Shown here piece by piece: positions 1,893 to 59,300 of a stretch of DNA of 64,000 nt. A model generated the notes under the pieces. That model saw only the letters and a list, made by a program, of their open reading frames with translations. It searched no databases and was not told the DNA's origin. The stretch comes from Cloeon dipterum (lineage: Eukaryota; Arthropoda; Insecta; Ephemeroptera; Baetidae): positions 9,414,501 to 9,478,500 of the forward strand of contig NC_088787.1 of the NCBI RefSeq assembly GCF_949628265.1, read 5' to 3'. The first letter of the stretch is position 1; each line of letters opens with the position of its first letter. The position numbers and the translations under genes are program-made.

Positions 1893-4800
1893 TCAGACCA
1901 TCCTGGGAATGCAAGCGGCCATTTCCTCCCTGGAGACGTAGTCAGGGTTGCGCACCACGTTGTACGGTCGGAACGTCAACATGGTCGGCGCCACGGCGGC
2001 TACATTCCCGTAGATGGGCTGCTCCTCCTCCAACTCCTCGGCGGCAATGTCCGAGCCGCTCGAGTAATCGCGCGCCTGCTCGGTCGAGTCGCCGTGACCG
2101 CTGTCCGACGAGTCCGCATCCGGTTGCGACGACACCATCGGCGCTGTGTTCAGCGTCACCATCGGCAGGTCCCGCGGCACCATTGAGTTGTTCTGCCGCC
2201 GCTTGTGTAACGCGTAGATCATGATCACCCAAATCATGGATGTCACAAGGACGCCGACCACCGCTGCGCACACCAAGAACATCTTGGTCTTCTTTTCATT
2301 TGTGTACACGTCTCCTGGAAAATTCATTGAAAAATGGCGTTAGAAAATATTTAAAAAAAAAAAAAATAGATGCATTGTCCTGTCTTTTAAAATTTATAGT
2401 TTTAATTGGTAAATCGAGCTTTCAAGGCAAAGAAAGGGATTTTATAGGGATTTCGTTATTAATGTTTGAAAATTAGGCAATTTACAATTTAGTTCAATAA
2501 TCAACGGGAAATTTGCTATGCAGACTTTTCTCCAGGAGAACAATTAAAAGATTTATTTGTATTTTTTAGTTCTAATATTTTATTTTACGAATTTTTAACA
2601 TGCGTTATATGTTTGCGCAATTATTTGTTGTTAATTATTAAATATTTTTATTTTATCACTGAATAATTATTAAAATTGAACTTAAAAAATATTTTAAGTA
2701 AATATTAAACCAATTCATATAAAAACCATTTGCTAAATCGAAAAAAAGATGAAAAATTCAGATTTCAGGATTATGTATTTATTTTAATGCAATAATTAAT
2801 TTTTACTATACTAAAAGTCTGAATGTATTTAAAAAATTATACAAACCATCAATCAATTTGTCTCGTAAAGGGGATATAAGTACAGAAAATAATTGTGATG
2901 GAATCAATTAACAAAATTATCCATAAGACTTTGTCCAGTCCGTAACTTACTTTGAATGACTGTGAGACGCGACGTGCCGCTCAACTTGCCGGCTGAATTG
3001 GACAGCTCGCACGTGTACAGACCACTGTCTGTGTTTCCTGCATTGACGATGATCAGCAGCTGGTCCTCCCCAGTCAAGAAGTGGCGGTCATCCTTTTCAA
3101 TTTGCTGGCCGTCCCTGGTCCACACCAGTTTTGGTTTTGGGAGGCCTTCGGCCATGCACTCGATAACTGCCGTTTCGCCAAGCATCACGTCTTTGTTTTC
3201 GATCGGCTTTGCGAACCTTGGCGGATCTGAAATTAAATTTAAAATATTGTTAATACACATACGGTATTTTGAATGAATTGTTAACGTACCTAATACTTCA
3301 AGGTAGACCTCGGCGTACACTTTACCAGCTTTATTATCAGCATAGCACTTGTATTTGCCAGAGTCGCCGGGTTTCACGGTTAAAATGAAGAAGGAACTGC
3401 TATCTGGCATCACGTGCATCCTTCTCTCTGCAGCGGCGAGGAACGGGATCCTTTCCTTGACCCATGAGATTTTTGGCTTTGGCTCTCCATGAGCCTCGCA
3501 CTCCAGCTTTGCACTTGTGCCTGTGATTGCAGTCAAGTTTTTGGGCACCTTGGAAAACACCGGCATCGCTGCGGAAAACAGAGAAAACAGTTTGAAAAAA
3601 CGTCGATTTGGACATTTTGAATTTAATTATCCATTTTGGCAATTTTAGTTTCTGCTCCGAATATTTCTCAATAAGTCAATGAATCGCAAAAAATTTACCA
3701 CTAATGATTTCCAGCCATGATATACGCTTTAACTTAAATTAATTCACCAATAATAAAAACGTAGAAATTTTCCTTCTAAAAAATATAACACCAGGAGAAT
3801 CTTTGAACTGATTTTACCCAAAATATCAAATGAATTATTAACTCACAGTAAACGTCCAGTTTGGACTTGGCGGAAAAGTTTGTGCCGAAGCCATTGGAGA
3901 CAATGCACTGGTAGAAGCCGGAGTTGTCAAAGCCAATGTTGCCTAGATGAATGAGTGAGTGCTGCTGCCATTCAGTGGCCGCACTGTCCGTGGAGGTGTC
4001 CAGCTCTCCCTTGTGTGTGGCGATGACGACGTTATTCTTCTTCCAAATGAAGGTCATGAGCTCCTTGACTGGCGAGGAGGCCCTGCAGGCCAGGGTGACG
4101 TTGTCGCCGGTCTTGCTCTCCAATGGGGCGGGCCCCTCGATGATCGTCGGAATGGGGTATCCGACGCACGGCAGACTCTCAGCCGCCAGCTGCCGGATTT
4201 GGCTGCCATTGAGGCTGCGCGGGTGTTCACATATGAGGTCTGGCTTCAGGCCGTAGCGCACTAGGTAGGTTGGCAGCCAGTCCAGGTTGCAGTAGCACAG
4301 CAGGTGGTGCGAGTTCATTTCGAGCGTGCGTAGAACTTTCACGGTGCTCAGCGCCTTCTCGCCCATTGTCTTGATTGGGTTGTCCTTCAGAAGGAGATTC
4401 GTCAGTCGCGTCAGGCCCTCAAACGACTTGTTGGTGAAGGACGTGATGTCGTTCGACGACAGGTCCAGCATCAGCAGGCTTGACAGTTTGCTGAACGTGC
4501 CAGACGGGTCTTCGACCACGTGTGCCAGCATGTTGTGCTTCAGGATGCTGAAGAAATATGAATAGAAAATTATCAACAAAGGAATTTATTGATTAAGTAG
4601 TAAAAAGGTGAATATTTCTCGCTATATTTTTTTAAATAAAAACTAAGTCATTTCCTTTAAGAATTTTGGGTTTTTTCCAAGACAAGTAAACAAATAATAT
4701 ACTGTCGGTTTAGTTTATTTAATCAATGTTAATAATTATTTAGCCAACGCACAGATTTTACATATTTAAAAAAAGCTTCCAAAATGGTAGCTCAGAGAAA

Positions 4801-7732
4801 AATTAATTAATGATCTGTCATCCAGGCCCGTATTTTTTTAAACTCATTTTACCTTTAGATCTATCATTATTCTGCTATTCAGGATAACTTACAGAGATTC
4901 CAGGCTGGAGAGGTCATCAAATGCGGTTGGGTCAACGTCCGACATGTCATTACTTGACAGGTCAAGCCTCTTCAGTTTGGACAGGTGGTTGAAGACGCGC
5001 GGGCCAATCGAGGTGAGTATGTTGCTTGAAAGATCCCTGCAATTTCCAACACACGATTGAGCAAGAGAACTCACTAAATATATGCAAACTCACAAATTAG
5101 TCAACTCTTTGGAGTCCTCAAAAGCATCTTTCTGTATGTGGGAAATGCTGTTGGTCGACAGGTTGAGATGCTTCAGCGATGGAAGGAGGTACATCCAGCC
5201 CCTCTTCAATATTGGGATGTGGTTCTTAAACAATTGCCTGAGAACCGAGCATGTTCTTTAGAAACTGATCAATCACTAGTTTAGAAATTTATTTACAGGT
5301 TTTCGAGGCTCACAAGCTCGTAGAACGCGCCATCAGACAAATTCTGCAGCCGGTTATCCTTCAGTATCAAATGTTTCAAACTTTTCAGCCCTCCAAATGT
5401 GAGGCCGTCGATGCTCACCAGGTTGTTGTTACTCAAGTCACTGATAAAACAACACTAAAAGTCAGACAAGAGTGTAATTCGCAAAATAATTTAATCTTAC
5501 AGATACTCCAGTTGAGTCATGCTGCTGAGGAATCCTTTCTCGAGCTGAGAAATATTGTTGTGCGCAATCGTCAGGTGCAGCAGGTTGGAGCACCCCTCCA
5601 GGTTGTTTCTGTGCAGAGTCTTTATCTTGTTCGAGTTCAGGTTTCTGCGAATTCGATTCAGGTTAAAAGCCGAACGCCCGATAGCAATGAAGCCAACTTA
5701 CAATCTCCGCAACGAATAATTTCCCGGACACATGGCACTCGTATGGGGCATTCTGACTTGGTTGAAACTGAAGTCAGCAGCGTACAGAGATGGGAACATT
5801 TCCAAGTCGTTCTTGAAAATGCGTTTCAGTCTATTGTGACTCCTGTGAAAATAGAAGATAATTTTAAAATCTGATAGATGAGGCGGCAGTTAAGTTATCT
5901 CCGTTTTTTTTCAAGGACTTTGCACCATAAAAACTTTAGTTCCAAGGATAATATGGAACGCACTTGGTTTAATTACCTCTGAATTTGCGTCTTTTTAGAT
6001 CACTCTTATCAGTATTAGGGATATTAAGAACGTCGTCTAAATTTGGCAGTGTTGATGCAGTTATCTTTAATTATATGTACGATAAAAATCACCAGACTCG
6101 CGTCTTCTTAATTTGGGAGATAATTTTGAACAAATTTATAAGCTTATGTTTTATCATTGTAAAAAGCGTACGTCGTACAATTTTTTTTGCTCTGGTGAAA
6201 ATATTAAAAATTGAGACAACAAACTTAATAAAATACATTCATTCGTTCTTAACTAATGATTTATTTTTCATTTTCATGCTTAATTGTGTATTTGATTGTT
6301 TCTATTTACATTAAAATAAAAAAAGAACGTGAAAACAATTGATTAACAGTTTCCAAATTTTCTATTGGCTTGTAAGTGAAATTTAAAAATTGTGTATTAT
6401 AATTTCGGCTAATCCCAAGCTTCTTCAGCGTAAAATCTGGCTTTATAAATAACCATTATTGACTGAATATTTTTAGGGGCGAGCGGGAGAGGGAGCTCAT
6501 TCATACCCCCTACCGAGTGATCCTGCCTTTGTCACCTAAGTCCCCGCAGTGACAAATTCATCTGTGCAACAACTAACTATTAATCCTCTCAACAATGTGA
6601 CTGTGCATTATGTCGAGGTTTTTACGACCCTAGTTGCCAATTCAGTTTGGACCTTATAAAAGGCCAAACACAAAACCTGTTCGCGCTGAATGCCTGCCTG
6701 CCTTTGATGTTTCTTATCCCAAAAAGTGAAGTGAGGTCTTAAATTTAGGTTAACTAACGTTCTGAATATTGTTAGGCGATATGAAAACGCTTTTCAGACT
6801 TTTCAACCGTGGGGAGGTGGAATTATTATTATTTTTTTTTTAATAAAAATAATGGATTTAAAAACATAATTAAATGTAATGTGTGTCGATCCCTGGGATT
6901 TCACCATAAAAATCAGATTTAATTTAACTATTCTCGATCATTCACTTATGCTAATTATTATCAGTCTTTCGGAGAAAAGGAAATAACTAAAACTATTCGT
7001 AAAAATTAATTTGATTCAAATAGGATGAACATAACCTTAACGAACTACTTGCTTGCTCTTTATTGCTAGCCGCAAAGCTTTACTTTAAAAAAAGAAAAAT
7101 TCATTTCTAGATTAAAAAAAATTAGGTGTGTCTGCCGTGACCTGCAGCCCCTTCAAAAACACTAATTCAACGTACGTAATATTATGCTGTGACACCTGCA
7201 ATTTTCAGCTCTTTGACAATTTATGTAAAATTGTAAGAATTTACTTACATGGTGAGGGTTTTCAAATTGGGCAAAGGGAAAAACTCGGACATCTTAGTCA
7301 GCCCATTGCCGTCGAGCCGCCTGCGAAAGTATAAAAGAAGAAATTAGCCAAAGGTAATGTGCAAATGGCAGGGGGTGGCGCCTGTACCCTGTACAGGAGC
7401 CACCACCGTTTGGGGCTTTGAGGGGCGGCGGGCGACACTCACAGGTCATCAGTCTCGTTGGAAAGGTCTTCCGGAAGCATGTTGTCGACGAGCCCGCTGC
7501 ACTGGACGTGGCTGTCCCGCACGCAGACGCATTGTCTCGGACAGGGGACGGGCGGAATGTAGGCGTCGTCGTCGGGAAGCAATCGTTCCAGCAGCGCGGC
7601 CTCGGCCTCGGCGTCACGGATCGGCGCCACCGCGCACTCGGCGCCGATCAACACCAGAGTCAAGGCGAAATGCGCCAACAACCACCGACGCACGGGTGTC
7701 CGACAAACAAAAACATGAGGAGTCGACGCCAT
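1893..7732 (-). CDS. lbk: LRIG/lambik-type leucine-rich repeat and Ig-domain receptor
   Basis: Eleven coding exons: 7443-7732, 7249-7320, 5702-5842, 5501-5644, 5297-5440, 5094-5237, 4893-5036, 3847-4547, 3290-3568, 2951-3226, 1893-2314. All junctions are GT-AG and in phase, giving 918 residues. Order of domains: signal peptide (about 1-34, core LALTLVLIG-like), cysteine-rich LRR N-cap (CPRQCVC), leucine-rich repeats to about residue 440, LRR C-cap (CYCNLDWLPTYL), three C2-type Ig domains (about 492-593, 594-686, 687-778; YQC, YKC and YTC cysteines visible), one membrane span (about 790-813) and a tail of about 105 residues with YGN and NPDYVSREE motifs. This architecture is that of LRIG1-3 and Drosophila lambik, cell-surface proteins that modulate receptor tyrosine kinase and BMP signalling. 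The ATG at 7732 sits in a good context (AAGATGG). It is somewhat shorter than vertebrate LRIGs, which are near 1,100 residues. The gene shares its 5' flank with Wsck. Family call is firm; one-to-one orthology with lambik is inferred. Confidence 0.9.
5843..7248 (-). other. Long intron of the LRIG-like gene
   Basis: The 1.4-kb intron between the first LRR exon and the next. It has a plus-strand TATAAAAG at 6655-6662 but no matching initiator or downstream exon that I can defend. No repeat shared with the rest of the window was seen. Other introns over 300 bp in this gene (2315-2950 and 4548-4892) also look empty. Confidence 0.6.
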
Positions 7733-8129
7733 CTTAGTAGTCCTTTTCAATCAGATGCTCCGCCGTGCTGTCTGTGACATTTTACCGCCTCTCCACCTTG
7801 ATTTCGCATTCAGTCCGCTGGAAAATACCCGGGGCACACGTTTCACTGGATAAACCGGCAAGAGAAATGCCCGTAGAGACCGAAAATCGAACAGATCCTT
7901 TTGAAAGCGCTCGAAAATCGACCTGTGCGAAGGGATGCTGCGAATCAAGGTGTTGTTCCTCTGGGAATCTCGTTTAACATCTTAAGATAACGATGCCAGC
8001 GCCTCTGCCGGACAGCGGACTGCTCTCAAGGTCTTTGTCAGCCATTAAAACGGCGGCTTGTAATTGGTGTAGCTTTACAAATCCGATTTCTCATTGGCTG
8101 ATTGTGATTTGTTTTGGTGCGCTTCGGGT

Positions 8130-8146
8130 AGCTGAATGATTCAGCT
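8130..8146. promoter_or_regulatory. 17-bp palindrome, Maf-element-like
   Basis: AGCTGAATGATTCAGCT is a perfect odd palindrome around a central G. The GCTGA/TCAGC half-sites resemble the Maf recognition element (TGCTGAnTCAGCA) but with wider spacing. It lies in the middle of the divergent promoter. Confidence 0.4.
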
Positions 8147-8169
8147 CAGGCAGGGGCTGCTGAATATCG

Positions 8170-8177
8170 TGACGTCA
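8170..8177. promoter_or_regulatory. CRE palindrome TGACGTCA
   Basis: A perfect consensus site for CREB/ATF bZIP proteins, 25 bases from the palindrome at 8130-8146. It is symmetric and so could serve either of the two divergent genes. Confidence 0.5.
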
Positions 8178-8788
8178 CTCACGGCACAATCCGGTCTTTG
8201 GTGTGGGCAGCGAGCAAGCGTTTGCGTTTCGATGCATTGTTAAAGTTGCTGTCGCTACAGGGGTGCACCCACTGCTTGCTGTTGCTGCAGGTGTTCCTTG
8301 AATAGAGAGGAGAGGAGAAGATCCCTCACCTGGAAACCACCTGTATTTCCAGGTGTGTAAGAAGAATTACTTTTTGTTGTAAAAGGTAGTCATGTGCATT
8401 CAAATTTGAGTGGTCCAATCTTCATTCATGCCGCTTTGACAATGCAGTCGAAGCGAAGTAAAAAATAACTTCCCGTCAAACCCGTGAGCCTTTTGTGTTT
8501 TTATTATTATTTTGCAACTGAAAACGTTTTCCGATTTTGATATATTTCTAGTACTATTTTTTGCATTTGAACATGATGCTTTTTGCACTCGTTGTTTTTT
8601 TTATAATTTTCTGACACGTTTCATCGCCCATTCGATCAAATGCCAATCAGAAGGTCGGGCGTGTCTGCGCTTTACTCACCCTCATTGTAACCTAGCTTTA
8701 AAAGATTGATGATATTCCCACTTAATGCTGCTCTTCTCACAGATTTTTTCTCGTGAAAATGGACTAAAGCCTTAAAATATCGGTGACA

Positions 8789-11700
8789 ATGGCCAGTTTG
8801 GAAGCTCTCGTGGCTGCGCTATTTGTGCTTTGCTTTCCGCATAGTATCAGCTCGACCGAAGGTATAATTTTGTCCGTCAAGATGATCAAAATCACGTACT
8901 GAAAATTTTATTTCAGTAGGTCAATCCTATCCTATCGGATGCTTCAGCTTCAGGATCGAATTGAAGTCAAATTATTTTGAAATTTCGCCTGTTTCGTCAT
9001 CTTCTTCAGTGGACAACTGCGTTATAAACTGTCTGAATCTCTACTACGGGTAATATTCGCTTCATGTTTGATAGAAACCTTAATTTATTTGAATCAAACT
9101 CATTCAGGTATGCGAATTTGAAAAACGGAGACACCTGCTACTGCAGCTCGAAGCACGAAGGCACAAGTGCAGGAGAATGCACCACGCCCTGCGCGAGGAA
9201 TTCGTCTCAGATTTGCGGTGGACCCAATTCCCTCTCTGTTTATGCAACTGGACAATTAGGTTAGACAATTAAAACAATATTTAAATTAAAATTCTTTATA
9301 ATATTATCTTGATTTTTCAGTCCCTGGGCCTCCAGAAATCAAAGTGGACCAGGTGACTGACTCGAGCATCCTTGTGAAATGGAAGCGGCCGAAAGCAGCC
9401 AACAGCCTGATCACGGGTTACACCCTCTCCCTGACATATTTGCGGGGCTTCTCCTCGCCCTTGCCGCCCATGGAGTGGGAGTATGCCGGCAACTCGTCGA
9501 GGGCCAGACTGGCGTCCCTGCATCCAGGCACAGAGTACAACCTGACCGTCAGCGCCATGTCCGAGGCTGGACTGGGCGTTCCCGCCATCACCACAGTCTG
9601 GACACAAATTGGAGGTAAAATGCTAAATGCTATAGAGAGCATAGAGAATAAAATTTTCCTATTTTATTAAAAATTTTAGTTCGTTTATTTTTGCCTTGAC
9701 AAGAAAGTGTGCATATGTAGGGTCCAAATATGTTTCCTGTAATTAAAATATTTTTTTATCTTCAGATCCTGATGAGCCGGAAGTGCCTAAAGTGTTGTCT
9801 CAGGATGCAAATTCTATAACAATAGAAATCACGCCAGCCAGGAACCAGAATGGTCCAATTTCCGCCTACCAGATCATTGTTATGGATGAGAGCGTGCCCA
9901 CGGCCTTCAACGAATCCACGCTCTTTGCTTACGCATTGGCTCAGAAGGAAAGCATTCCCTACTACATCACGGCTGAACTCAATCCAGATGTGAGTGTTGT
10001 GTTTTAAAATTACGCTCTTTAGATTCATCATAATAGATAAGGGAAAGGTTAAACCCGTAAAAATTCAAGGTTTTTGCGGTGAATAATATTTAATTGCTAG
10101 AATTCGGTAGCTTTTTCTTAAAAATTAATAAAATTTTGTCGTTTAAATGAATTAAAACGAAATATCGCTCCATTCCCGCTATTCCCTCCATTCTGTACTC
10201 TAGTTTTCACCTGCCAAAATTTTCTGTTTTAATTTTTAAATAATAATTATAGTTAAATTTGACTCTCACTTTCACTGCTCTAATATTGTATCAGAATAGC
10301 AGAGATTGTAAATCAACCTTAAATTTCAGAGCCTGGACACAAAGTTTGTGGTGGGTGACGGCAAGTTCTACGGTGGCTACTACAACGCTCCCCTCTCCGC
10401 GGAGGGTCACTTCCACATTAGCATGGGTGTTATCAGCTTCAAGGACGGCGTGCGGAAATCCAGCTTTGCTCACGCAACCCACGAGCAGCACGGAGTGATT
10501 GTTCTTGACGTCGGTCCAGGTTTGTCGGTTTTGTTGTATGTATCAAATCATAAATTAATAAATATTATATTTTAGTGACAAGAGACACATCGCCGTCGAC
10601 CATGGTGATCGTTTTGTCCTTTGCAATCGCCTTCTTCAGTGTTCTGCTGGTCTTGTCCATCGTTGTTTACGTGGTCATGAGACACAAGGTTCACCAGCGA
10701 CGCCTCAGGCTGCCCGACAATCAGGAGCTCTCCATACAGGGACCAATTCTTGAAGTGGTGAGAATTTTGACAAAATATAATCCTGTGAGAAGTTCATAAA
10801 TTTTAAAGTACCAAATTATGGTTTTTCCAAGTTTGTGTGGGAAGAATTAAAATAATTTAAAAATTCTCTCAAAGATAATTTTTGATTGAAAATTAAATTT
10901 TGTATTTTATAATTATTTCGTGGGCTGAACATTATAAAAAAATTACATTTAAATTAAATATTCTCATTTCGATTCGGTAAATTTCGTTTCAACAAAATAA
11001 AATTTATAATTTATGCTGGGATGCATCTGTCAATGATGTATTTGTATGTAAAATCACAATTATGGTTCCTGTAAATGTGTAAATATTAAGTTATTGAATT
11101 CAAATTTTCATAAATAATTATCGGACATTAGAATAAAATCTTCTCGCTTTTAATCAATTGAATTTTCAGGAAGGAAATGGTTACGTGCACACCGGATACA
11201 TTCCCGAGGACGAAGATGAAAGAACAAACCATTTAGAAGCCTTAAAAGCTAAAATCTGGAGCATTCCTGTGAACCACCTGGACGTGAAGAACGATCTTCT
11301 CGGAACTGGAAAATACGGATCGGTCCTCAAGGGCAGCGTGAATCAAAAAGGCTTCCCTGTTCCAGTAGCCATCCACTCGATAGCTGGTGCGACTTAACAA
11401 CAAAAAATCCTAGATCCCACATAATACTAATACTTCTTTTTCACAGATGTTTTGATGTCCAAGGCGGAACGGAAAGAAATGCTGAAGGACCTGGACCTTT
11501 TGGTGCGTCCTGGCTCTCACGACAACCTGATCTCTCTCATCGGGACCTGCGAACATCCCGACCTTCTCTACATAGCCATCGAACACCATCCAGCGACCCT
11601 GAAGGACGTTCTGCTCGAGTCCAGGATTCTCGAGCACTCTGCCCCAGACCAGCAAGATAACATTACTCGATTCTGCTCCCTTTCCGAGCACAGCATTTTG

Positions 11701-13257
11701 AACACTCTGCTCGGGGTTGCGGACGGAATGAAATTCCTGGAAGGCAAAAGGGTATTTTTATTACCGCCTTTCTGGGAATGTGCAGGAAGTTAATTTTCCA
11801 TGATCTTAGATTTTCCACAAGAAACTTTGCGCCAGTCACGTTGCCATGGCAGACGGAGTGAATCCAAAAATCAGCGCCATTGGAATCTCAGAGTACTGCA
11901 GAAGTCAGCAGGTGAGGATCAAATTAGCCAATTATAGTCAAGACTATTTTCTTGTTTAATATTTGTTTACTATCAAAAAGTGAATGTCATATTATGTTTA
12001 ATAGACAAAATCAAAAGATATAATGCAGGAAATAGCAAACAGTTAGCAAAAACGATCTATTGCATTGAATAATTTTGCCGGATTTAGCTGGATATTTTTT
12101 GTGGGCTGAATAGCAGGTTAAATTTTTGACGTTAACAGCGCCTTAAATATTTTGATGAATCTTCAACCACTTACAAAAATTAAAGCATTAAGTACAGAAA
12201 GTGCTCTAAAATTTGCTATATCATCACTTTATTGTAATCAGAAGTAAAATTAAAAAAAACATATGTTTTATTGATTTAAATTTATTTATTGAATCTGTTT
12301 GTAATTATTGCCAAAATTTCAACAGTTGAAAATAATTAGATATGAGGACCTTGACTATCAAAATTTGCAACGGTCGACCATATTTTTAGCAGATTTCTAT
12401 TTCCCTGGTTAAAATTGACTCAGGATTGCAAAACCTGCATTTAAAAATATATCAGTGCAGTGGTCAAATTCGTTTTTTTTTTAATTTAACCAGTTTCTTG
12501 CAGGTAATGTTTGCACCTCAGTTTTTAATAATTTTCTCATGACCTCGACTCGAAAAATTGTCAGAGAGTACTTTTTGGAGAAATTGAGACGGCAAATGGC
12601 ATTTTAAAAGAAAAAATCTGCATAGTAGAGGGAATTTTTAGCACTCCCACCGCAAATTTTAGGTTTTCACAGGGGAAATATGGCATAAATTCATTTCTTG
12701 CGCTAGAAATTTTTAACGTTTGTTTTAACAAATTGCAGAGCCCGACCGACCTGACGCGTTGGACCGCGCAGGAGATTTTCCGCAGCGGCCACTTCACGTC
12801 AAAGAGTGACGTGTGGGCGTTCGCGTGCGTGGCCTGGGAGACGCTGGCTCTGGGAGGCACGCCGTACCCTGACGTGCCGACTAGGGAGCTGCCTGCACGG
12901 ATAATGCGCGGCCTCATCCTGCCTCAGCTGCCACACATCGGGGATGAGCTCTTCCAGCTGCTGCTCCAGTGCTGGCAGGTCGACCTCGACGAACGACCGT
13001 CGTTCGAGGAACTTGTTGAAGCTCTACACTGCCTCTTGGATAACCCCGCGGTAAGTAGATTTAATTCAAATTTGACAATTATCTAGTTAAAAATGTAAAG
13101 AAAATTTACTTGTCAAGGACTCGTCTGATAGCAATAATTTTAAATTTAGTTTAATTTTATTTTATTGTGTATATTTCAGCACCACGTTAGCTTTTCCCTT
13201 AGAAGTGGATTCCGGTATGAGCCATATGCGCCTGAAATGGAATCAATCGCCAAATGA
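8789..13257 (+). CDS. Wsck: Wsck, WSC-domain receptor tyrosine pseudokinase
   Basis: Twelve coding exons: 8789-8861, 8917-9049, 9108-9259, 9321-9614, 9766-9989, 10330-10519, 10576-10757, 11170-11386, 11447-11751, 11810-11911, 12739-13050, 13180-13257. Phases agree throughout, giving 753 residues, close to the roughly 790 of Drosophila Wsck. Order: signal peptide (1-22), WSC domain (about 30-118; IGCFS, CVINC, DTCYCSS, CGGPNSLSVY), an FN3 domain (about 121-218), a second FN3-like segment (about 222-350), membrane span (about 365-391) and a kinase-like domain (about 455-725). The glycine loop GTGKYG is intact at 461-466, but VAIK reads VAIH (H485), HRD reads HKK (593-595), the catalytic-loop Asn is H600, and DFG reads AIG (613-615). 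C-lobe structure is kept (SKSDVWAFACVAWE, CW, DERPSFEEL). Catalysis is therefore unlikely; a scaffold or co-receptor role is inferred. ATG context ACAATGG is strong. Confidence 0.93.
12466..12722 (+). repeat. Dispersed repeat in a Wsck intron
   Basis: This stretch of the 827-bp intron 11912-12738 matches, in reverse orientation, the segment 49500-49800. Shared runs include the blocks around GAGAAATTGAG, GGCAAATGGCA, AAAAATCTGCA, AGTAGAGG and the GCAGG-AATGTTTGC-CCTCAGTTTT stretch. By eye about three quarters of bases agree. It is an old interspersed element of unknown class. Confidence 0.65.
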
Positions 13258-31908: not shown

Positions 31909-33978
31909 CAATATTATATTATGTTTCAAAATTACACTAATTGTAAGAGTTTATTTATAGATTTATTTCTAGTTTCCATCTCAAATTCATTAACCATCCT
32001 TACACTCTTACAGAATTTTTATTTTTAACGTTCATCGCACAAGAATAACTTGGTGACTGAAATGTATAAAAAAAATTAACCAAATAAAATCATCTTATAA
32101 ATTTGTAAAGCTTTCAAATAAATGTAAATTAAATGTAAAAAAACTATTTTCTTAATTAAATTGAAAATAAATATTTTAAAATTTTATATTCTATATTTTG
32201 AAACTTATACAAAATTTACACAATTAGAAATGCTTTTTTGCTGACATAGATGGGCAAAAACACGCTGGTAAAAAACCGTAGCGTTTGAAACGCGTGAACC
32301 CGGCTGTAGAGAAATGTTATGCAAATGAATAGGATGCAGAGTGTGGAATAAATCAGCATTCCTCCAACTGATCCGGGCGAATAAAAAAGCCATAATTCGC
32401 TGACAACTCCATAAAATAAAACTTAACGTGCGTTTTATCTTCGATTTCGTCGAAATGACAACATCATTTGCGCCGCTTTATTGGCTTTGGGGATTTTTTT
32501 GTCTCTTCTGCCTAGAAAATGCAGATTGTTGCAACAAACTTCCCGGATTTTCCTAAAAAAATTTAAAAAGAATTTACATTTATTGTGTCGGTAAGTTTAT
32601 CTTTTAAAGGCTGTTGGGGAATTGTTACGTAATTTTATTGTCATTTTCAATTTTCCTAATTTTAATAGTATGGTTAAAAAGGTTCTTACGAAAATTTCTG
32701 GGGAAACCCTCTGGAGACGACTCTTTTTTGTCCAACTGTCCGCCCTTTTATCAAACCCTGATTCAAATGCAATTCAAGAGGTCTTTGAACGTTTAACGAG
32801 TAGAGATGACGGATCTGAACGTTTCTCCCAAAACGCCTTTTAAAATTAAATAAATTCATGATTATTAAATTAAATGCCATTTTTATTTTCCTACTATCGA
32901 ACGTGCCCAAAAATTAAAGAGGACCCAATTCACGAATTTACTGCGACCCCAAAAACTAAAAATTAATCTTGATAAACGTGTGATGTGTCTTTTTGAAAGC
33001 CAAAAGGCCTTAATTGCATTCGCAATAATTAACAAAATCAGCAGCTTGATCAGAAAGAAAGGAAATTGTGGATTCGAACGCAATTAAAAGCTGATTCCAA
33101 CCGCATTATGCAGGCGGGATTTAATTTAAAAATTCTAAAGATAAGACGCGGCGGGCGCAGACACGCGGACCGGTTGGATCAGCTTGTGTAATTTGCGCTT
33201 TTTGCTAAATTGACGTCTTTCGCGGCCGGTGCAATTTGAAAGAGATACAATGTTGCTTTCGTGTCAGGCCCACATACGCCGCGCGTTAAGTCATATATAT
33301 ATAAATATATATCGTGGCAGTGCAAAAAGCGCGATGAGAGAAGCAAAAGCGCGCTCGCAGCACAAAAGAGCGCAGTTTATGCCTCGTTTGTCACTCGTTT
33401 TTTTCTTGGAAGATCAACAGGATGCATTCGAATAATGAAAAATGATTAATTGACTGTGCATGTTCATTTATGAGCTGCGGAGCGAACACGAGCCGAAAAT
33501 ATAGCCCTGGCCAATGCACTTTCCTGCAAATGAGGCGAGCGCTCAGCGCGTGTCGTGTGCGAAAGATATCTCGGCGCGTTGCTCACTATAGTTCTATTTT
33601 AAATCAGGCCTGCCAATTTTAGACGGTTTTGTATTTAGATTAGGATTATAATAGCAAAATTATTTTAACGAATTATTTTTGTTTTAAATTTTAGAGGCAA
33701 AATTTAATCGAAATTTAAAATTAAAAGATACTTCTGTGGATTGTTTTTGTATTTTTTTCTTTTCATTTTTTTTTTTAAAAAAAAAGAAGAAAGAATCTCG
33801 CTCGCTTTTTTACTATAAAATTTACTATCTAGCGCTATAACAATAAACTTCTCGAGTTTCTATTCTTTATATTTTCTACAGAATAGTAAATATTTATTGC
33901 TAATTTGATATAACCATAGAACAAAGTGTATTTTAAAGATGATATGCAATAAAAATACAGGATTCGATGCGGAATACA
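31909..33978. other. Intergenic spacer
   Basis: AT-rich to about 33100, then a CpG-richer patch at 33120-33590 with TA-rich runs (near 33292-33313). No gene or shared repeat identified. Confidence 0.55.
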
Positions 33979-34404
33979 CCTGTTGCATAAGCCCTTAGTG
34001 TTCGAAGCCGCCAACAGATGGCGCCACCGAATGAATTCGTAATTAAATTTAATTTTAAGGCACTTTCGATGTGATTTCAAACTCAATCCTGCTACCGTGC
34101 ATTCTTCACTTAATATGATTTCTTTTGACGTGCTGAAAACCAAAATCGGTTAAGCCAATCGCCGTAGAATCGTGAAAAACTATTTTTTTTTAAATATAAA
34201 TATTTTCCAACGTTTCTTCGGCGAATGGCTGGACTGATTTTGGTTTTCAGCACTTGAAAAGAAAGAAAATTAAGTGAAGAATGCACAGTGGCAGGATTTT
34301 GTCTGAAAATCGCAGTGGAAGTGCCTTAAAATTAAATTTATTACGAGAGTATACGGTGGTGCCATCTGTTGGTGGCTTCGAACACTAAGAAATTATACAA
34401 CTGG
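33979..34404. mobile_element. Foldback MITE with CTCF-like motifs, copy A
   Basis: A near-complete palindrome of two roughly 190-bp arms. The left arm starts TTAGTGTTCGAAGCCGCC and the right arm ends with the inverse, GGCTTCGAACACTAA; homology extends outwards to CAACTGG at 34404. Each arm contains the block GACGTGCTGAAAACCAAAAT or its inverse. The insulator-like motif sits at 34011-34026 and, inverted, at 34357-34372. No coding capacity. Confidence 0.85.
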
Positions 34405-37025
34405 GGTAACAACAATTTTTACAATGTTCTAAGCGCACGATGAGCTAGAAATTTTTTAAATTTTATTCTTCTGCTAAACAATCTTTTTTTTAATTAATAA
34501 AATTTATTTTACAATGGTTTCTCTCATAGCTTTGGATGAGAATAGTAAAAGGTTGTGATAATTATTATTGTAAAAGCCAGCTGTGTTTTTATTTTGGACC
34601 AGAGAGCAGACAAAAACTTTCTATAACTTTTTGGAGCATTGAAGATGCTATATAAAGATGCTCTAAATTTCAATTATTATCATTTAGAAAAAGCTAAAAA
34701 TTTCATTGATCTATCGATTTTGATGGATGGTCTCATTGTTATATTTTTTCTATTAAATAGCAATCAAAGTGTTTCATCAAATCAAAAGCTCTTTGGGTTT
34801 TCCAGTCAGTTTCCGTGGGTTTTCCCATTGGCCAGGAGCATCTGTGGCGAGAGAGTCGGATCATTAGTTAACGACAACCAGATCAGTACGTTTTATATAA
34901 TGTTAGTTTGCCGAGTCACGCGATTGAAAAAGTTATAGGCAGCAATGATGCGCCATAACAAACGCGAGCGCGCGCGTGTGCGTTATTCCGAGAAAGAAAG
35001 AGAGTTCCCGATTCCCGCAAAGGTCGGCCGTGGCGGATTAAGAAAAAAATAAATAAATAAATAAATACGAGCGTTGCGTGCTGCTTGTAAAAAAGGTCAT
35101 TTGTCAATGCGCGCGGCGTGCGTGGTTAAACATGCAAATCAGGCCATATATTACGTTCGGCGTGTGTGTGTGCTCAGTTTGATCAGCAATAATAATATGT
35201 AATCACGCGGCGAGACCATTAAAAACAACGCAGCTTTCACCGCGATAACCTCTGATTTTTCACTCGGCGCGCCGGCGATCTGAGATTTAATTTTTTTTGG
35301 GGAGTAAAGAGCCGATTTTTTCTTGCAGAAGACGCGTTTCTCGCTCGAGAGCCAATTCATCATTTTAAATGGCCACCTGAGGCGGGATCACCTGAAAATT
35401 ATTACATCAAGAAGTGTTTTTCACACACCACAGGTTGAGAACCCGTCCAATAACGAGGAATAAAAAAGCTCTGGGGGAGGTTTTCGTCCAAAAGCGCGCC
35501 GGCCTTGGCTGCCGTCTCTCGGGAGAGTGTGAGAAGGACCGCTTTTTCTCTTTTCCGACACATTTCCCCTGCAGCCCTGCCGCGACAATCGGGGCTGTGA
35601 TAAATAGTCACCCGTTCTTCTGGATTTTACAGAGAAAAATAAAAAAAAATCATTTTAGTTTGCGCAAAGTTAATAAATAAATAAGTAAGGGAAGAATGCC
35701 TTATTTTGACAAAGAAAAAATGAATCTAATAAAAGCCAAAAGTTTCTTTTTTTGTCCTTTTCCCTGAGAAGAATGAAAAGATAAATAAATTTATGCTTTG
35801 AAAATAACGCTTTATTTACTGTCAAGTTAAAAATTACGTCATTGTTGCCACCATCAATTATAAAGAGGTTTAAAGAGGATTGATACTTAAATTCTTGTTG
35901 CTAAAATACATACATCAACCCCTTACGGATCCGACTAGAGCGAAATTTTAATTTAATTTTATTTCGGCTTCCTTTTCAAATGGTGAGGACTGTCTCCCTA
36001 AATTGAAATGATATTTTATTTCAAAATAAATAGTTTCCTAAAATTTGTTTTACGCCGTTGGATGGATTTCTACGAGAGGAACCAAAATCTGCCAAGAAAA
36101 TTTGGTCAAATGTTATAATTTTTTTTTAATAAATTGTAAAATTTGAAGCAAAGACCTTTTTCTATTGGACATTTAAATTGCTGTTCCCGTATCAATCTAC
36201 TTTAACTGCCAAAATTGGAATTGAGTTAAAATGAAACTATAATAAAAACACCTTCTTTTAACTGCCAAGAGGAAAAATACAAACAATATAAGCATGACGT
36301 CACTCAAGACTTGCCAAACTTCTGCGAATTGTCTAAGTCCCTCTCAGGGACGCAACATCAAACGAAAATTTCTGTTTGGATTTTATTGGGGTAATAAAGT
36401 GATTCTTCGCCGGTCAATGCACTTTAAAATGCAAAAAATATCTACGACAAAATTTAAAACAAAAAATGCCTTTTTCGCAATAGAGACGCGAGAGGATTCT
36501 AAAAATTCTCCGTTTTTCACATCCCTGGCCCGTTGTTGTGAGTCAGGGCGGCAAGGCAAGAGCTGCAGTGGCTGGTGTGGATGGATCAGGTAACCGAACG
36601 AACGAGCAGAACTAAGCGCGCCGATAAAGATCAAAGCAGCTCTTTATTCATGGATGGATCGAGTGGCGGCGGCGGCGGCCGCCGCTCCATTCACAAAATT
36701 AGAGACTGGCTGCGGCGGGCGGCCCCGTGACCACCTCAAACGAGCTTTGCGCTTGCTTGCTTGCTTGCTTTCCTCGCCGACTCACTCGCTGCGCGCTCTT
36801 ACTTTATTCTTCCCAGAAACGCGGACGTGCCAATGCTTTGTCCTCAAGTCCGCAGTCACCAAGCATTTTGCAATGTGTATTACAGCAGTTTTTTTTTAAA
36901 TGATTTCAAATAGGGTCTAAATTTTTGAATTATTAGAAAAACTAGTGCTTCTTTAATTTCTGTACAGCAATTTTTAAAGGATTAAATTTTTCTCATGGAT
37001 AAATTTAATTGCTTACAATATATAT
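34405..37025. other. Intergenic spacer with CpG-rich islands
   Basis: No coding exon found. CpG-rich blocks lie at about 34945-35600 and 36650-36860. The stretch 35985-36150 (GAGAGGAACCAAAATCTGCC, AAATTTGGTCAAA) resembles a decayed piece of the GATACTG MITE family. Confidence 0.5.
36749..36770. repeat. (GCTT)n microsatellite
   Basis: Five tandem GCTT units inside a CpG-rich block that also carries a GGC run at 36665-36685. Confidence 0.75.
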
Positions 37026-37413
37026 AGTGTTCGAAGCCGCCAACAGATGGTGCCAGCGTATGCTTTCGTAATAAATTTAATTTTAAGGCACTTCCTCTGC
37101 GATTTCAGACTTGATCCTACCACGGTACATTTATCACTCAACATACTTTCTTTTGACGTGCTGAAAACTAAAATCGGTTTAGCCAATCACCGTAGATTCG
37201 TGAAAAACTATTGTTTGAAATAAAAAATCTTTTCTGACAATTCTACGGCGATTGGCTGGACAGATTTTGGTTTTTAGAACGTCAAAAAAATTGTTTAAAG
37301 TGAAGAATGCACAGTGACAGGATTGAGTCTGAAATCGCAGCGGGAGTGCCTTAAAACTAAATTTATCACGAAAACATACACTGGCGCCATCTGTTAGTGG
37401 TTTCGAACACTAA
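37026..37413. mobile_element. Foldback MITE with CTCF-like motifs, copy B
   Basis: Starts AGTGTTCGAAGCCGCC and ends GGTTTCGAACACTAA; both arms present, about 388 bp. Motifs at 37040-37055 and, inverted, 37382-37397. The arms align with copies A, C and D across the CTGAAAAC-AAAATCGGTT and GCCGTAGA blocks. Confidence 0.85.
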
Positions 37414-40339
37414 CGGATCATGCATTCAGATCCTTTTTAAATTCAACAAATTTTACAATTTGCTAATCACGAGATGATTTGAATAAATTTTTCTCATGGA
37501 TAATTTTAATTGCTTACAAAAAACTTTTTACTTTTAAAAATTTTAATTGCAGAATATTTCATATTTATTCTAAACATTTGTCATAAAAAAGGGCTTTACT
37601 GTGATGCTGAATCTTGTTGGAATGAGATATCAAAATAGGAAAAAATTAAACGAGAATGATTTTTATATAATTCGCACCTTGAAAATTTAAGCATAGTTGT
37701 GATTACATCCATTTTCCGGTACCTGGTTTTTAAATGTAAAAAATTAATGGATTTTTGATTGATCGCACATTTGAGAGTTTGCCGCATTGACACGATTACT
37801 GAAAAGTAACGGGTATTTGCAGGGTTTCGTGCCGCTCGGGAGATAGTTCCTAGAAAATAGTCAATTTGACTGATGATTACGATACGAATTTGCGGTGTAG
37901 CCCGCAGTTGGGAAGATGCATACGGGTTCGGTTTTGTCCGCAGCACACCGCAGAAGATAAAAAGGAAATAATAATGCTACAGAATTGAGGTTTCCTGAGT
38001 GTTTGAACAAATCAATATTTGATTCCAATATGTAAGATGTTTCTAAAAAGGGGAAAATCAAAATAGCTGACTACTAAAATGCAGGTAGTAATTTTTTAGT
38101 ATAGGGGCTATCGACTTTGGAAATTTATTAAATTCTATATAAGAGAATCCTGAAATTAACATTCACGATTCTAAAAAAAAATACAAATTAATTGAAGTTG
38201 ACCAAAACTATAAACAAAATTGAATTTGTACATTTTAAATTTATAGTTATGTATAAAATATATTTAAATTATAAAAATTGAGCATAAAATGTGTTTTTTT
38301 AAGAATGTTGTTACTTTTTTGTATTTTAAAATATATGTTTTGTCTTGCTATTTAAATTTGCAAGGATATCGGCTACAAGTTTGTATGCCGTTTAAGCATT
38401 CAGTATACTATCTCCGTGTTGAATATCATAATTTATTTCACCAGAGCGAAAATTTACCATACAATTCGCATACGCACCGTTGGATAGATCACGACGAGTG
38501 GAATTAAAATTTATTTATAAAAAATTGGAATAAAAAATGTGTCTAGAAATTGTGCAAAATCTCAAATTTAACTTTAACTCGGCCCTAATTCAAATTAGCA
38601 ATTAATTCAAAAATTAAAATGCGCCCTGTATTTATTTATCTTCATCAAGATCATAAATCAAATTGAGAGGCGTCTGAATACACAAAGAAAATTGTTGGTT
38701 TGCGCGACAAAAATGAATGAAAAAACTCATGGTTGGATTTACGGCGTTCAGGGAGGCTTACATCAGCGATCGGGAGCGTCGAATTCGCCATTGTGTGCGA
38801 CAGACACTACTTCATACATAAGGCATGCGTCCGGTGCCCTTGTCTTTCAATGCATAATTAATTGCATCACACGCGAATCGCGTTCTGCGGCGCCGCGTGA
38901 GTGAGTCCGAAGCCTCAATAAACGTGTTTTCAAAGGCCTGAATGCAAAAGGGCAAACAATTATACACACACACACACATACACATATACTCTCTGGCTCT
39001 TCTTCTTCTTCTTCTTCTTGGTCGTCGTCAGCGGCAGCGGCGGCGGCGGCGGCGGACGGCTTTAATAAGGCTCTCCCCCGATTTATCTACAATACCGATC
39101 GTGCACAGACTCGACGGCCTTCATCGGACATTAATCCTTTTTGCTAACCATTAAACAGACTTTGCTGATATTAACAGAAATAAAAAAAAGAAAGAAACTA
39201 TTATACATAAAAAGTGGCGAGAAAAATAAAACGCCGGCGGGTGCGCGCGGCCGATAATAAAAGCAGCGCAAGACGTGCTAATGGGTACCGTACCAAAAAT
39301 TAATAAATTTATCTCCCGAGACGCGCAAACACGCGCCGGGATTTTGAGTAGCTTTTGATTTTTATGACTGCGATTTGCATTTTATCCGCGTCTCGGCGAT
39401 CACGTCGTCTGCAATACGCCCAACTGTGTCAAAAAGCACATAAATGGAAATCATCAGCAGCGCAGACACGTGTGCATATTAGCAGCAAAATTCGGATTGC
39501 AGGATACAATGTTGCTGTATGTGCTGTGTGCGCATGCCACTGCTGAATGGACGGACCTTCATTGCCTGCGCATTGAATTCATGAATAAATGTCGTTAATT
39601 TTTTTACTGGGCGTTTGACTTTTTTATGGCAACCTAGGATTTTTTTTAAAAAAAAATAGAAGATTGTTTTAAATGTGAAGAGTTGTAAACTTTAAATCCT
39701 CAAGATAATATAATTTCAAGTATGTAGCGAGTGCACCAGGAAAATATTTTATACTGCGAAAGCTTCAAACCCATCATTATGACCTGTTTTGAAAAAGGGT
39801 CCTTCCAAAAAAAATTTACCGCCTTGAAGTAATAATTTATCACGAACCTGCGCAAGCTTCAATTTGTGCAGTACTTCCACGTTGGCTATCAAAATAATAA
39901 CTCAGTGTCTCAAATGTTAAATATCTTCTGCAGAGCTTGATAAAAATACCCTGAATCTTAATTTATTATAATATATGACCCGTTATTTTAGTTAAACGTA
40001 CTTTTCATTAAAAAAATTAATAGAATAAATTATTTCATAATATTATACTTGATAGAGCTATTCTATTTTTTAAGTTATAAATGAGGCACTTATATTTGGT
40101 TATATTTCAGAAAACTAGTATCTGAAAAAACACGTTTTACTTATAAATTTTCCTCACACAGTTAATGAATAAACAAATTGCGAGAGCATTTTAAATAAAG
40201 AAATACACTATTTAACTATCAGGTCTTAAAATCAAATTATGGAAAAATACATCAATGAAAATACATATTTCAAATCATGGAAAACAGATTGACTTGATAT
40301 GAATTTTGTGTTGTTGCAAATAAAATCATAAGTATTTTT
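37414..40339. other. Intergenic spacer
   Basis: AT-rich with no coding exon found. A CpG-richer patch at about 38860-39560 surrounds the microsatellites at 38964-39055. Confidence 0.5.
38964..39055. repeat. Compound microsatellite: (CA)n, (TTC)n, (GGC)n
   Basis: Three adjacent simple tracts: CA repeats at 38964-38983, TTC repeats at about 38999-39019 and GGC repeats at about 39031-39055. Reading frames through them give low-complexity Leu or Arg runs and are not genes. Confidence 0.85.
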
Positions 40340-40565
40340 CCAGTTGTGTAAATCCTCAGTGTTCAAAGCCGTCAACAGATGGCGCCAGCGTATACTTTCG
40401 TAATTAATTTAATTTTAAGGAACTTCCGCTGCGATTTCAGACCCAATTTAGCTACTGTGCATTTTTTACTTAATGTGCTTTCTTTTGACGTGCTGAAAAC
40501 CAAAATCGGTTCAGCCATTCGCAGTAGAAAATGATTTTTTATTTCAAAAAATAGTTTTTCACGAT
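40340..40565. mobile_element. Foldback MITE, copy C (single arm)
   Basis: Begins CCAGTTGTGTAAATCCTCAG, which equals the inverse of the right end of copy D and so fixes the true outer boundary of the family. Only the left arm is present, ending near the GTAGAAAATGA hairpin turn; the right arm is deleted. Motif TCAACAGATGGCGCCA at 40372-40387. Confidence 0.8.
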
Positions 40566-56300: not shown

Positions 56301-59300
56301 TTAAGAGTTTTGAACTGCCATAAAATGGATCAAAAAGTAATTTTTAAACCTTCTATCACATTAGTGCAGTTTAAAATCGAACAATAATGCTGCAATCATT
56401 TTTTTTCCAACTTTACTCGCTTTATTAGAGTATATTTAAAATTAGGAAAAGCTCCGTTTTCAGGAAAATTGCTTCATCAATTGCAGTTCCTAGAAATAGC
56501 ATATTCTTCATTATTTTAATGCAATATCGGATGAATGAGCAAACGGAAAAAAAACTAAAATTCCTTTGGCGTACAGTAGATTTCATTGACATTGTTCAGA
56601 ATTTTTTTATTAAGTCCAGAATGGTTTCCAGTAACAGAAAAAAGATACAGAGCAAGAAAATAGAGCAGTCTGAGGGACCGCAATATGAGAACGTGCGAAA
56701 TATATTACGTTTTCTTAGCTCCTCAGTTCAAAACCACATAGAGTATTTAATTTAATCCAAAAAATTGAAAAAATAGCCTACAAGTGAAATTTAAACTTCA
56801 ATTTTCCTCCAATTTATTATAAAGTGCACGAAGGTCAAAATATTGTTATATCAAACAGTATTTTTTTAATTTATTTTTCAGATTTGAAATCCCGATGATG
56901 ATCGGCAAATTCAAGCTTCCGCTAGGCTACAGTCAAGACCTGGAATGCAGAGTGCTGGAGATTCCGTTCAAGGAGCGACGCATCAGTCTCTTCATCCTGC
57001 TTCCGGATGACCTGGACAGAGGGCTGGCCCGCCTCGAGGAGCACATGTCTTCAGACACCATCAAAGCGCTCTTCTCCACGCTCAAAGTCAGTTCATATTT
57101 TTGCTATGTTACAAATTCGCATTGCATATAATTCAATTGCTATTATAAATTTATTTTGAATAACAATTGTTTTTATAAATTAATTTGTTTAAAATAATTT
57201 CCACTTTATTTTCAAACACTAATATAAGCGAATATTTTCAAAACTGTAATTGCGAGAAATTCGTTTGGTTACTGGGCACTATACAAATATTCATTTTCAC
57301 TGAAAAAATCAACTTTTCGAGTATATCTGTGGGGGGAAAAACGTTTCTGCTCGGCACCTGATGACTGAAGAGCCGTTTTTTCCACGTTGGCGCGTGGGAT
57401 CGAAGCGACGACGAGTCGATGAAAAGCGATTCCGGCTTTGAGAAGACCGCTATTTATTAGTAGTAAATTTACAGAGAAACTGTTGTTGTTGGGTGTGTAG
57501 GTGGCAGGCGGCGAGCAGATTTTTTCGACCCGGAATTGAATTATAAAGTCTCTTAATTATTTACACGCGCGCGTTTTGTTTTATGGCGCGGTGGGAGGTC
57601 TGTGCGGTGCGGCCGAGAGAGGGACACAGACGTCCACCCAATCACTGTATAAACGGCCACACAAGGACACACGAGGGGCTCGAGGGGTCAGTGCTCCAGG
57701 TGGCACTGTGCCGTACTCGCCATTCATCATTTCTCGCTCATGATCAGAAAGCAAACCGGTGTCTAACGAGCAGAACATGAACTAAATTTATTTATTCCTT
57801 TAACACCTTATTAAACATGCAAAAAAAAGTGAAAATAGGCACTTGAAAAAGCGATCAGGTCGCTAAAACGTCGGCAGTCAAGAGATGGCCGAGCCATCCA
57901 AGGTGTTAAAATTAAAGGATAATTTATTATAATCTTGTAATGCTGAATCTTTAATTGCATCATCTGTTTCAGCCAATGAATATATATTATGTTCTATTGA
58001 AGGGATTCTAAAACAGTGCAAAGAAATGAATATATAAATTTTTCTTTAAAATATTTAAATATGTGGAAAGAAAATAATTGTATTGTTTATAATTTTTTTT
58101 AATAAAAATTTAAAAAATGTTTAATGTTCAAAAAATAATTATATATCATTATTAAATTAATAAGTTTTAAATAACGTAGCATTTAGCATATTATATTCAA
58201 TCAATTAAATTAAAATAAGATTTATAATAAAATACAATTGGTTGGAAAGTAAATCTAACGCGCCGTATTCGTTTCAGGACGAGATGGTGAACATCCGGCT
58301 TCCTCGCTTCCGGGTGTCCCAGAGCGCCAACTTAGTGGAGGCGTTGGTGCGAATGGGCGTCGCAGACATCTTCTCCGCGTCCAAGGCTGACTTTTCCGGC
58401 ATGTCTGACGACCGCAGCATTCACATCAGCGACATTGCCCACAAGTAATTCTATTCAAACTTTATCGCAGCCGCTGCACTCGATGCTTAGCATGACTGTC
58501 TCTCACCAAGATTGAAAATAACTCGAAATTTTTACACAGCTAATGTGCAATAATTTTAATTAAATTTATGTTCAAAATTTAACAGGCAATTCGCTAACAG
58601 ATGGCACCACCGTATATTTTCGTAATAAATTTATTTTAAGGCACTTCCGCTGCGATTTCAGACTCAATCTAGCTACTTTGCATTCTTCACTTAATTTGTT
58701 TTCTTTTGACGTGCTGAAAACCAAAATCGGTTAAGCCAATTGCCGTAGAATCGAGAAATTAATTTTTTAATAAAAAATATTTTCCAACGTTTCTACGGTG
58801 AATTGCAGGACTGATTTTGGTTTTCAGCACGTCCTAAAAAAGCGTATTAATTGAAGAATGCCCACTAGCAGGATCGAGTCTAAAATCACAGCGGAAGTGC
58901 CTTAAAATTAAATTTATCACTAAAATATACAGTGGTGCCATCTGTTGGCGGCTTTAAACACTAAGGATTTATACAACTGGTGAACTATGCAAAATTTAAA
59001 GCCACTTAAATTAATTAAAACATTAAATTTTTGGTGATGATTGATTTATTTCCTTTCAAAAATTAAATTTAGTACTCAAATTGTTTATTTACTATTTTTA
59101 AATTATTTATTAAATGACCTTGATGGTCCTGGAACACAGAAAAAACAGTCGATTGCCTAGATCTATAGATTTCATTAATCAATTATAAACTTCCTTTAAT
59201 ATTTCCTGTTCACGCCATTAGTTTAAAAATTACTCTATTTTCCAGGACAATTTTGGAAATCCGCGAGAGTGGGGCGGACGCAGCTTCGGCGACAGCGACC

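Follow-up and report, generated by a model that had tools for sequence, protein, structure and literature searches.

A foldback family with a CTCF-like motif in its arms

When a transposon carries a motif that resembles the binding site of the insulator protein CTCF, is the motif kept for the chromatin of the host or for the needs of the transposon? The question is raised by a window of 64,000 nucleotides of the Cloeon dipterum genome, the whole stretch of DNA analysed here, in which nhmmer finds four copies, one of them truncated, of an element with long inverted arms (Table 1). The initial annotation of this window had proposed a foldback MITE family of four copies, and the nhmmer matches, the inverted arms and the presence of the family throughout the genome bear this out. 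It had also placed the last copy in a serpin intron, in agreement with two earlier exons that match Serpin in Pfam (50.4-50.7 and 53.2-53.6 kb); inspection by eye added serpin-like exons at 56.8-57.1, 58.2-58.4 and 59.2-59.4 kb, and copy D lies between two exons. At the other side of the window, from 1893 to 13086, open reading frames on both strands contain immunoglobulin, leucine-rich repeat, fibronectin III and tyrosine-kinase-like domains; these are perhaps receptor genes, PTK7/off-track-like ones being our guess.

Table 1. MITE copies and CTCF-like motifs in the window.
Feature	Position	Strand	Evidence
MITE copy A, both arms	33978..34404	+	nhmmer 464 bits; 92.7% identity to sample consensus; inverted arms
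MITE copy B, both arms	37023..37424	+	nhmmer 396 bits; 87.3% identity to sample consensus
MITE copy C, truncated to one arm and some of the middle	40340..40565	+	nhmmer 193 bits on +, 210 bits on -
MITE copy D, in serpin intron; outer end of left arm unmatched	58591..58982	+	nhmmer 398 bits, model position 32 onward; serpin exons
Motif, copy A left arm, exact CCAACAGATGGCGCCA	34011..34026	+	
Motif, copy A right arm, 1 mismatch	34357..34372	-	
Motif, copy B left arm, 1 mismatch	37040..37055	+	
Motif, copy B right arm, 1 mismatch	37382..37397	-	
Motif, sole arm of copy C, 1 mismatch	40372..40387	+	
Motif, copy D left arm, 2 mismatches	58594..58609	+	
Motif, copy D right arm, 1 mismatch	58933..58948	-	

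Every arm in the window contains the motif CCAACAGATGGCGCCA, with zero to two mismatches in the seven arms, as had been claimed. Allowing up to three mismatches, the window has 7 matches, while dinucleotide shuffles have a mean of 0.22 and a maximum of 2, none of 100 reaching 7: the observation is well above chance. The heptamer CAGATGG, reported as unchanged in the seven arms, is indeed so and is part of AACAGATGG, the longest invariant run, but it is not uniquely frozen, other invariant runs being TTTTAAGG (8 bp) and AATTT (5 bp). The fit to the vertebrate CTCF core CCASYAGRKGGCRS at all but one position is confirmed for the best copies, which match 13 of 14 positions with an A where S is expected; the consensus motif has the same score and the same A, and is not a full match either. 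The fly core AGATGGCGC is intact, as announced for the best copies, in three of the seven arms, at 34015, 37384 (reverse) and 40376. One claim has to be turned around: the two motifs of a copy had been called divergent, and the strands reject this, since the left-arm motif lies on + and the right-arm motif on -, so that they face each other. The pair is convergent, with starts about 345 bp apart in the three two-arm copies.

Structure and abundance of the element

At about 434 bp, the consensus of the family is an almost perfect palindrome with terminal inverted repeats, and its arms are identical at 149 of the 150 outer positions compared in each; such long inverted arms fill most of the element. 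The arms of single copies are less alike than those of the consensus: those of copy B are 81% complementary. Among 31 copies with both borders readable, selected by AATT-like borders, 25 measure 431-438 bp from border to border. The ends have the form AATT-[C/G]ACCAGTTG...CAACTGGT[G/C]-AATT, read as AATT-[C/G]ACCAG...CTGGT[G/C]-AATT, and each AATT position has the consensus base in 39-45 of the 47 copies that have both CCAG and CTGG ends.

A scan for a duplication outside AATT gave no convincing signal, for lengths 2-10 (best z 2.4) or 2-12 (best z 3.6); the best setting in the same 31 copies, a 2-bp match found in 16% against 4% expected, had this z of 3.6 among hundreds of settings. Consequently, AATT may be a strict target duplication, or else it forms the terminal bases of the element. 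A search with joined flanks, within the fetched loci, returned nothing that we recognised as an empty site among the matches listed.

Each arm has a conserved block, TTCGAAGCCGCCAACAGATGG(CGCC), about 25-50 bp inward of ACCAG. MITEs and Foldback elements are short, have long inverted arms and reach high copy numbers, and the Drosophila FB element has tandem repeats inside its arms. The present family is likewise short, with long inverted arms and a high copy number; it differs from MITEs and Foldback elements in general in that no duplication longer than AATT is demonstrated and that a search by block pattern revealed no autonomous partner. Judged by these sequence features, a non-autonomous DNA element, a MITE of foldback type, is the best reading.

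The genome that was searched comprises 190,111,064 bases in 10 contigs, the window being on contig C2. The exact motif CCAACAGATGGCGCCA occurs in 1,165 places (591 + 574), and its reversed control in none; with up to 2 mismatches, the figures are 3,943 (1,988 + 1,955) and 27. A 34-bp pattern of the inner arm, with up to 3 mismatches, has 2,259 matches, of which a full copy has two, and this suggests a family of about a thousand copies or more. That a MITE family carries a paired CTCF-like motif thus stands as an observation.

Conservation of the motif

The initial annotation set the unchanged CAGATGG against flanking arm bases that have drifted. The sample used to examine this claim was drawn blind to the motif. 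A total of 113 loci were fetched, five of which came from the search for a CTCF gene and were without any copy, and nhmmer applied to the loci and the window gave 256 hits, 127 of them non-overlapping and 117 left after removal of duplicates. We kept 83 copies and dropped 34, namely the copies in 18 motif-chosen loci (L001-L008 and L049-L058), the window copies and hits shorter than 330 columns. The 83 copies have a median identity to the consensus of 0.908, lean to contig C1, and include near-identical ones (highest pairwise identity 0.997), some from the tandem array of loci L078-L080. The columns tested belong to the outer arm, outside the search queries, and CpG columns were excluded. The copies being related, the p-values computed on columns are guides and not counts of independent events.

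With 76.4% of 161 arms keeping it intact, the core CAGATGG ranks first of 55 outer-arm heptamers in columns 21-81. Further inward, TTTTAAG is nearly as intact (74.1% of 158 arms), a fact that counts against a role of the core block in transposition. A variant present in more than 6% of copies probably goes back to source elements. Such shared variants affect one of the 14 core columns and 49 of the 120 remaining outer-arm columns (Fisher p 0.010); for variants above 10%, the counts are 0 of 14 and 27 of 120 (p 0.036), and none of 5,000 composition-matched permutations has a shared-variant frequency as low as that of the core. Taken over all its 16 bases, the motif stands out at the 10% cut (2 of 28 against 25 of 106 columns, p 0.04); at the 6% cut the difference is not significant (8 of 28 against 42 of 106, p 0.20), and this also counts against a transposition site.

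Private changes give a different picture. Singletons, read here as changes that postdate insertion, have about double the frequency in the core (19 of 1,133 cells) that they have elsewhere (78 of 8,925), and composition-matched permutation detects no depletion. They are an imperfect measure of private mutation, since their excess in the core perhaps arises because fewer core variants are shared. Rare variants up to 6% reach 0.0327 per cell in the core and 0.0401 elsewhere (p 0.13). The claim of a more conserved motif thus holds for the heptamer, the most intact in the outer arms of the 83 copies and one with fewer shared variants, but not for private changes; put as a comparison of rates with neighbouring arm positions, a check that the annotation had proposed, the motif evolved more slowly in the lineages that amplified and not more slowly in single copies. 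Since shared variants are scarce and private mutations undepleted, it seems that the elements which multiplied were under constraint and that inserted copies were not. Purifying selection by the host on single copies, as a cause of the conservation, was rejected on the same undepleted private mutations.

The conserved region is wider than the core. Columns 25-49, TTCGAAGCCGCCAACAGATGGCGCC, are constrained overall, with variants above 10% in 2 of 38 columns against 25 of 96 (p 0.004), and the block reaches outward over TTCGAAGCC, past the CTCF core. The run TTTTAAGG has fewer rare variants, but it adjoins a query and may be biased. Over the whole genome, 628 outer-arm anchors TTAGTGTTYRAAGCC were found, and 387 of them have an exact CAGATGG five bases on; four have lost all five tested core bases, by deletion of the motif in two of these, judging by eye. 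Some inserted copies are without the motif in one arm, for example at L088, which counts against the transposition-site reading.

A block probably required for transposition

What kept the block intact in source elements? We think it rather probable, on the pattern of sequence variation, that the subterminal block, which resembles a CTCF site, is required in cis for transposition, probably as a transposase site. Transposases often bind blocks near the ends of an element, in both arms, and the presence of the motif in both arms is as expected of such a site. A requirement in cis for transposition also predicts what the variants display, selection on multiplying elements with no later protection. 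The block would be a subterminal recognition site, most simply bound by the transposase of a putative autonomous partner, and the site would include CCAACAGATGG; only elements with an intact block would have multiplied. That the block resembles a CTCF site would be incidental, and host CTCF could still bind some copies. A pattern for other families having the same block gave two places (L114 and L115), which by eye are indel-shifted copies of the MITE.

A comparable arrangement is described for Herves, a hAT element of Anopheles gambiae, in which each end bears a short subterminal motif that the transposase binds, as established by biochemistry (PMC3143072). The position of the motif at both ends is common to Herves and the MITE; the sequence is different, and binding was demonstrated for Herves while the transposase site of the MITE is putative.

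It is also conceivable, and in our opinion very improbable, that the motif is conserved by pure coincidence and descent, copies that share few sources having inherited it without any function. The similarly intact TTTTAAG fits this idea, as does the relatedness of the copies, because of which the tests on columns are no tally of independent events; the uneven distribution of shared variants, of which the core and columns 25-49 have few, goes against it.

Could host CTCF bind the arms?

If the motif were a real CTCF site, bound in the arms by the protein of the host, each full insertion would bring two convergent sites, separated by about 345 bp, and the pair could act as insulator or loop anchor. 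We rate this as possible but unlikely. The match of 13 of 14 positions to the vertebrate core speaks for it; the A of the typical copy at the S position, and private mutations that are not depleted, speak against it. The similarity described between fly CTCF motifs and that of human (PMC3491045) also favours it. CTCF transcripts were found in almost all the arthropod assemblies examined in one study (PMC5094011).

A likely CTCF ortholog, another point in favour, is encoded on contig C3; its best PDB match is human CTCF, residues 268-380 and 381-480, orthology being judged from PDB matches only. At helix positions -1, 2, 3 and 6, which we take to be those that contact bases, fingers 3 and 4 are identical to the human ones and finger 5 has one change (Y to F). 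Finger 6 differs at three of the four positions and finger 7 at two of the four, and these differences weigh against a real site. Under our assumed assignment of fingers to bases, the ortholog may well read AG(A/G)TGGCGC-like DNA, and would do so less certainly on the side where the MITE has its one mismatch. With a likely ortholog present, binding to the motif would be possible.

Scanning the genome for longer cores yields CCASYAGRKGGCGC at 81 places, against 9 in the control, and CCANTAGRKGGCGCD at 22, against 4. Between them, the two patterns give 41 different sites in which Y is T, of which 40 were fetched; the other, C1:37296827, abuts a TTAGTGTTYRAAGCC anchor. The MITE profile matches 34 of the 40 (weakest E 0.0008), and the excess of CCASYAGRKGGCGC was rejected as a set of native CTCF sites because these 34 T-type sites are in the MITE; the 59 places among the 81 where Y is C lie outside the fetched set. 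Among the sites examined, long-core CTCF-like sequence is therefore carried mainly by MITE arms, and the T-type sites give no independent sign of a native population. This share of the long-core sites is neutral, neither for nor against CTCF binding. The full 14-base core is present in 16 of the 40, in arms of the family, which agrees with a real site; the small number of long-core sites outside the family, 6 of the 40 fetched CCANTAGRKGGCGC sites, two of which are a duplicate pair, does not.

The proposal that the MITE spreads insulators must be split. The paired, oppositely oriented CTCF-like motifs are confirmed, but conservation has lost force as a sign of insulator function, private changes being undepleted and the block wider than the core: it indicates instead a need of the element itself, and the spreading of insulators is a possibility to which we give a low rating. 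Lower still stands the larger scenario of a MITE that has put thousands of CTCF-like sites into the genome, a convergent pair with each full copy, and that would have CTCF to thank for its success, bound arms aiding its mobilisation or its landing in open chromatin; such a DNA transposon would exploit an architectural protein and at the same time alter domain boundaries, or titrate CTCF by number. This appears improbable. Finally, the element might use CTCF for itself, in mobilisation, in synapsis of its ends or in gaining access to open chromatin, and selection for the motif would then be confined to source elements. This would account for the split between shared and private variants together with the likeness to CTCF; the conserved block, however, extends past the CTCF core, and CAGATGG is more fixed than a degenerate core demands, so that we hold this idea for very doubtful.

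Known systems

Some insect transposons reportedly distribute sites for a chromatin protein: ISX Helitrons of Drosophila miranda are said to have spread dosage-compensation (MSL) sites. They offer a model for the present case, with the difference that their function was tested, while here it is conjecture. In mouse, the B2-B4 transposable elements spread CTCF sites, with measured binding (PMC7520972); like the Cloeon family, they are repeats that carry and multiply a CTCF-like site, but they are mammalian elements, whereas in Cloeon a DNA element carries a convergent pair of putative sites. Among the matches listed in literature searches, none was recognised as this family or as an insect MITE-borne CTCF site, and none of those listed for the motif strings was related by its title.

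If bound, the family would be a DNA-transposon counterpart of the CTCF sites borne by mammalian transposons, with thousands of near-identical sites in a compact genome, and a natural test of how convergent CTCF pairs act. If not bound, it would show that the recognition block of a transposon can mimic a CTCF site and dominate a scan for long-core motifs.

Relatives and rearranged copies

The 18 loci chosen by the exact motif all hold a match to the family profile, weakly so in L055 and L056. In these two, at about 518-736 and 436-711 respectively, lie diverged relatives with a different middle that have kept the motif block; as they were selected by the motif, they give no evidence of its conservation. 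Six other loci (L136, L138, L141, L142, L145 and L146) appear by eye to form a subfamily, in which CCAGTAGATGGCGCCAG is followed by a different inner arm. With CCAGTAGATGGCGCCAG, the subfamily matches the vertebrate CTCF core in full, in loci that were selected by motif; its pattern TTTCGATTTTAAGGCACTTCC has 667 places in the genome at up to 1 mismatch.

In L021, L026, L032, L034, L043 and L088, a deletion fuses the terminal ACCAG/CTGGT stub to the inner arm, and the AATT-like border is kept. These deletions are perhaps the product of aborted repair, and they hint that the last ten bases matter. Loci L078, L079 and L080, on contig C2 at about 6.83-6.84 Mb, contain MITE copies inside an apparent tandem array of units of about 1.2 kb: the copies are 1.2 kb apart, and a comparison of the three loci gives 82-100% identity for their flanks.
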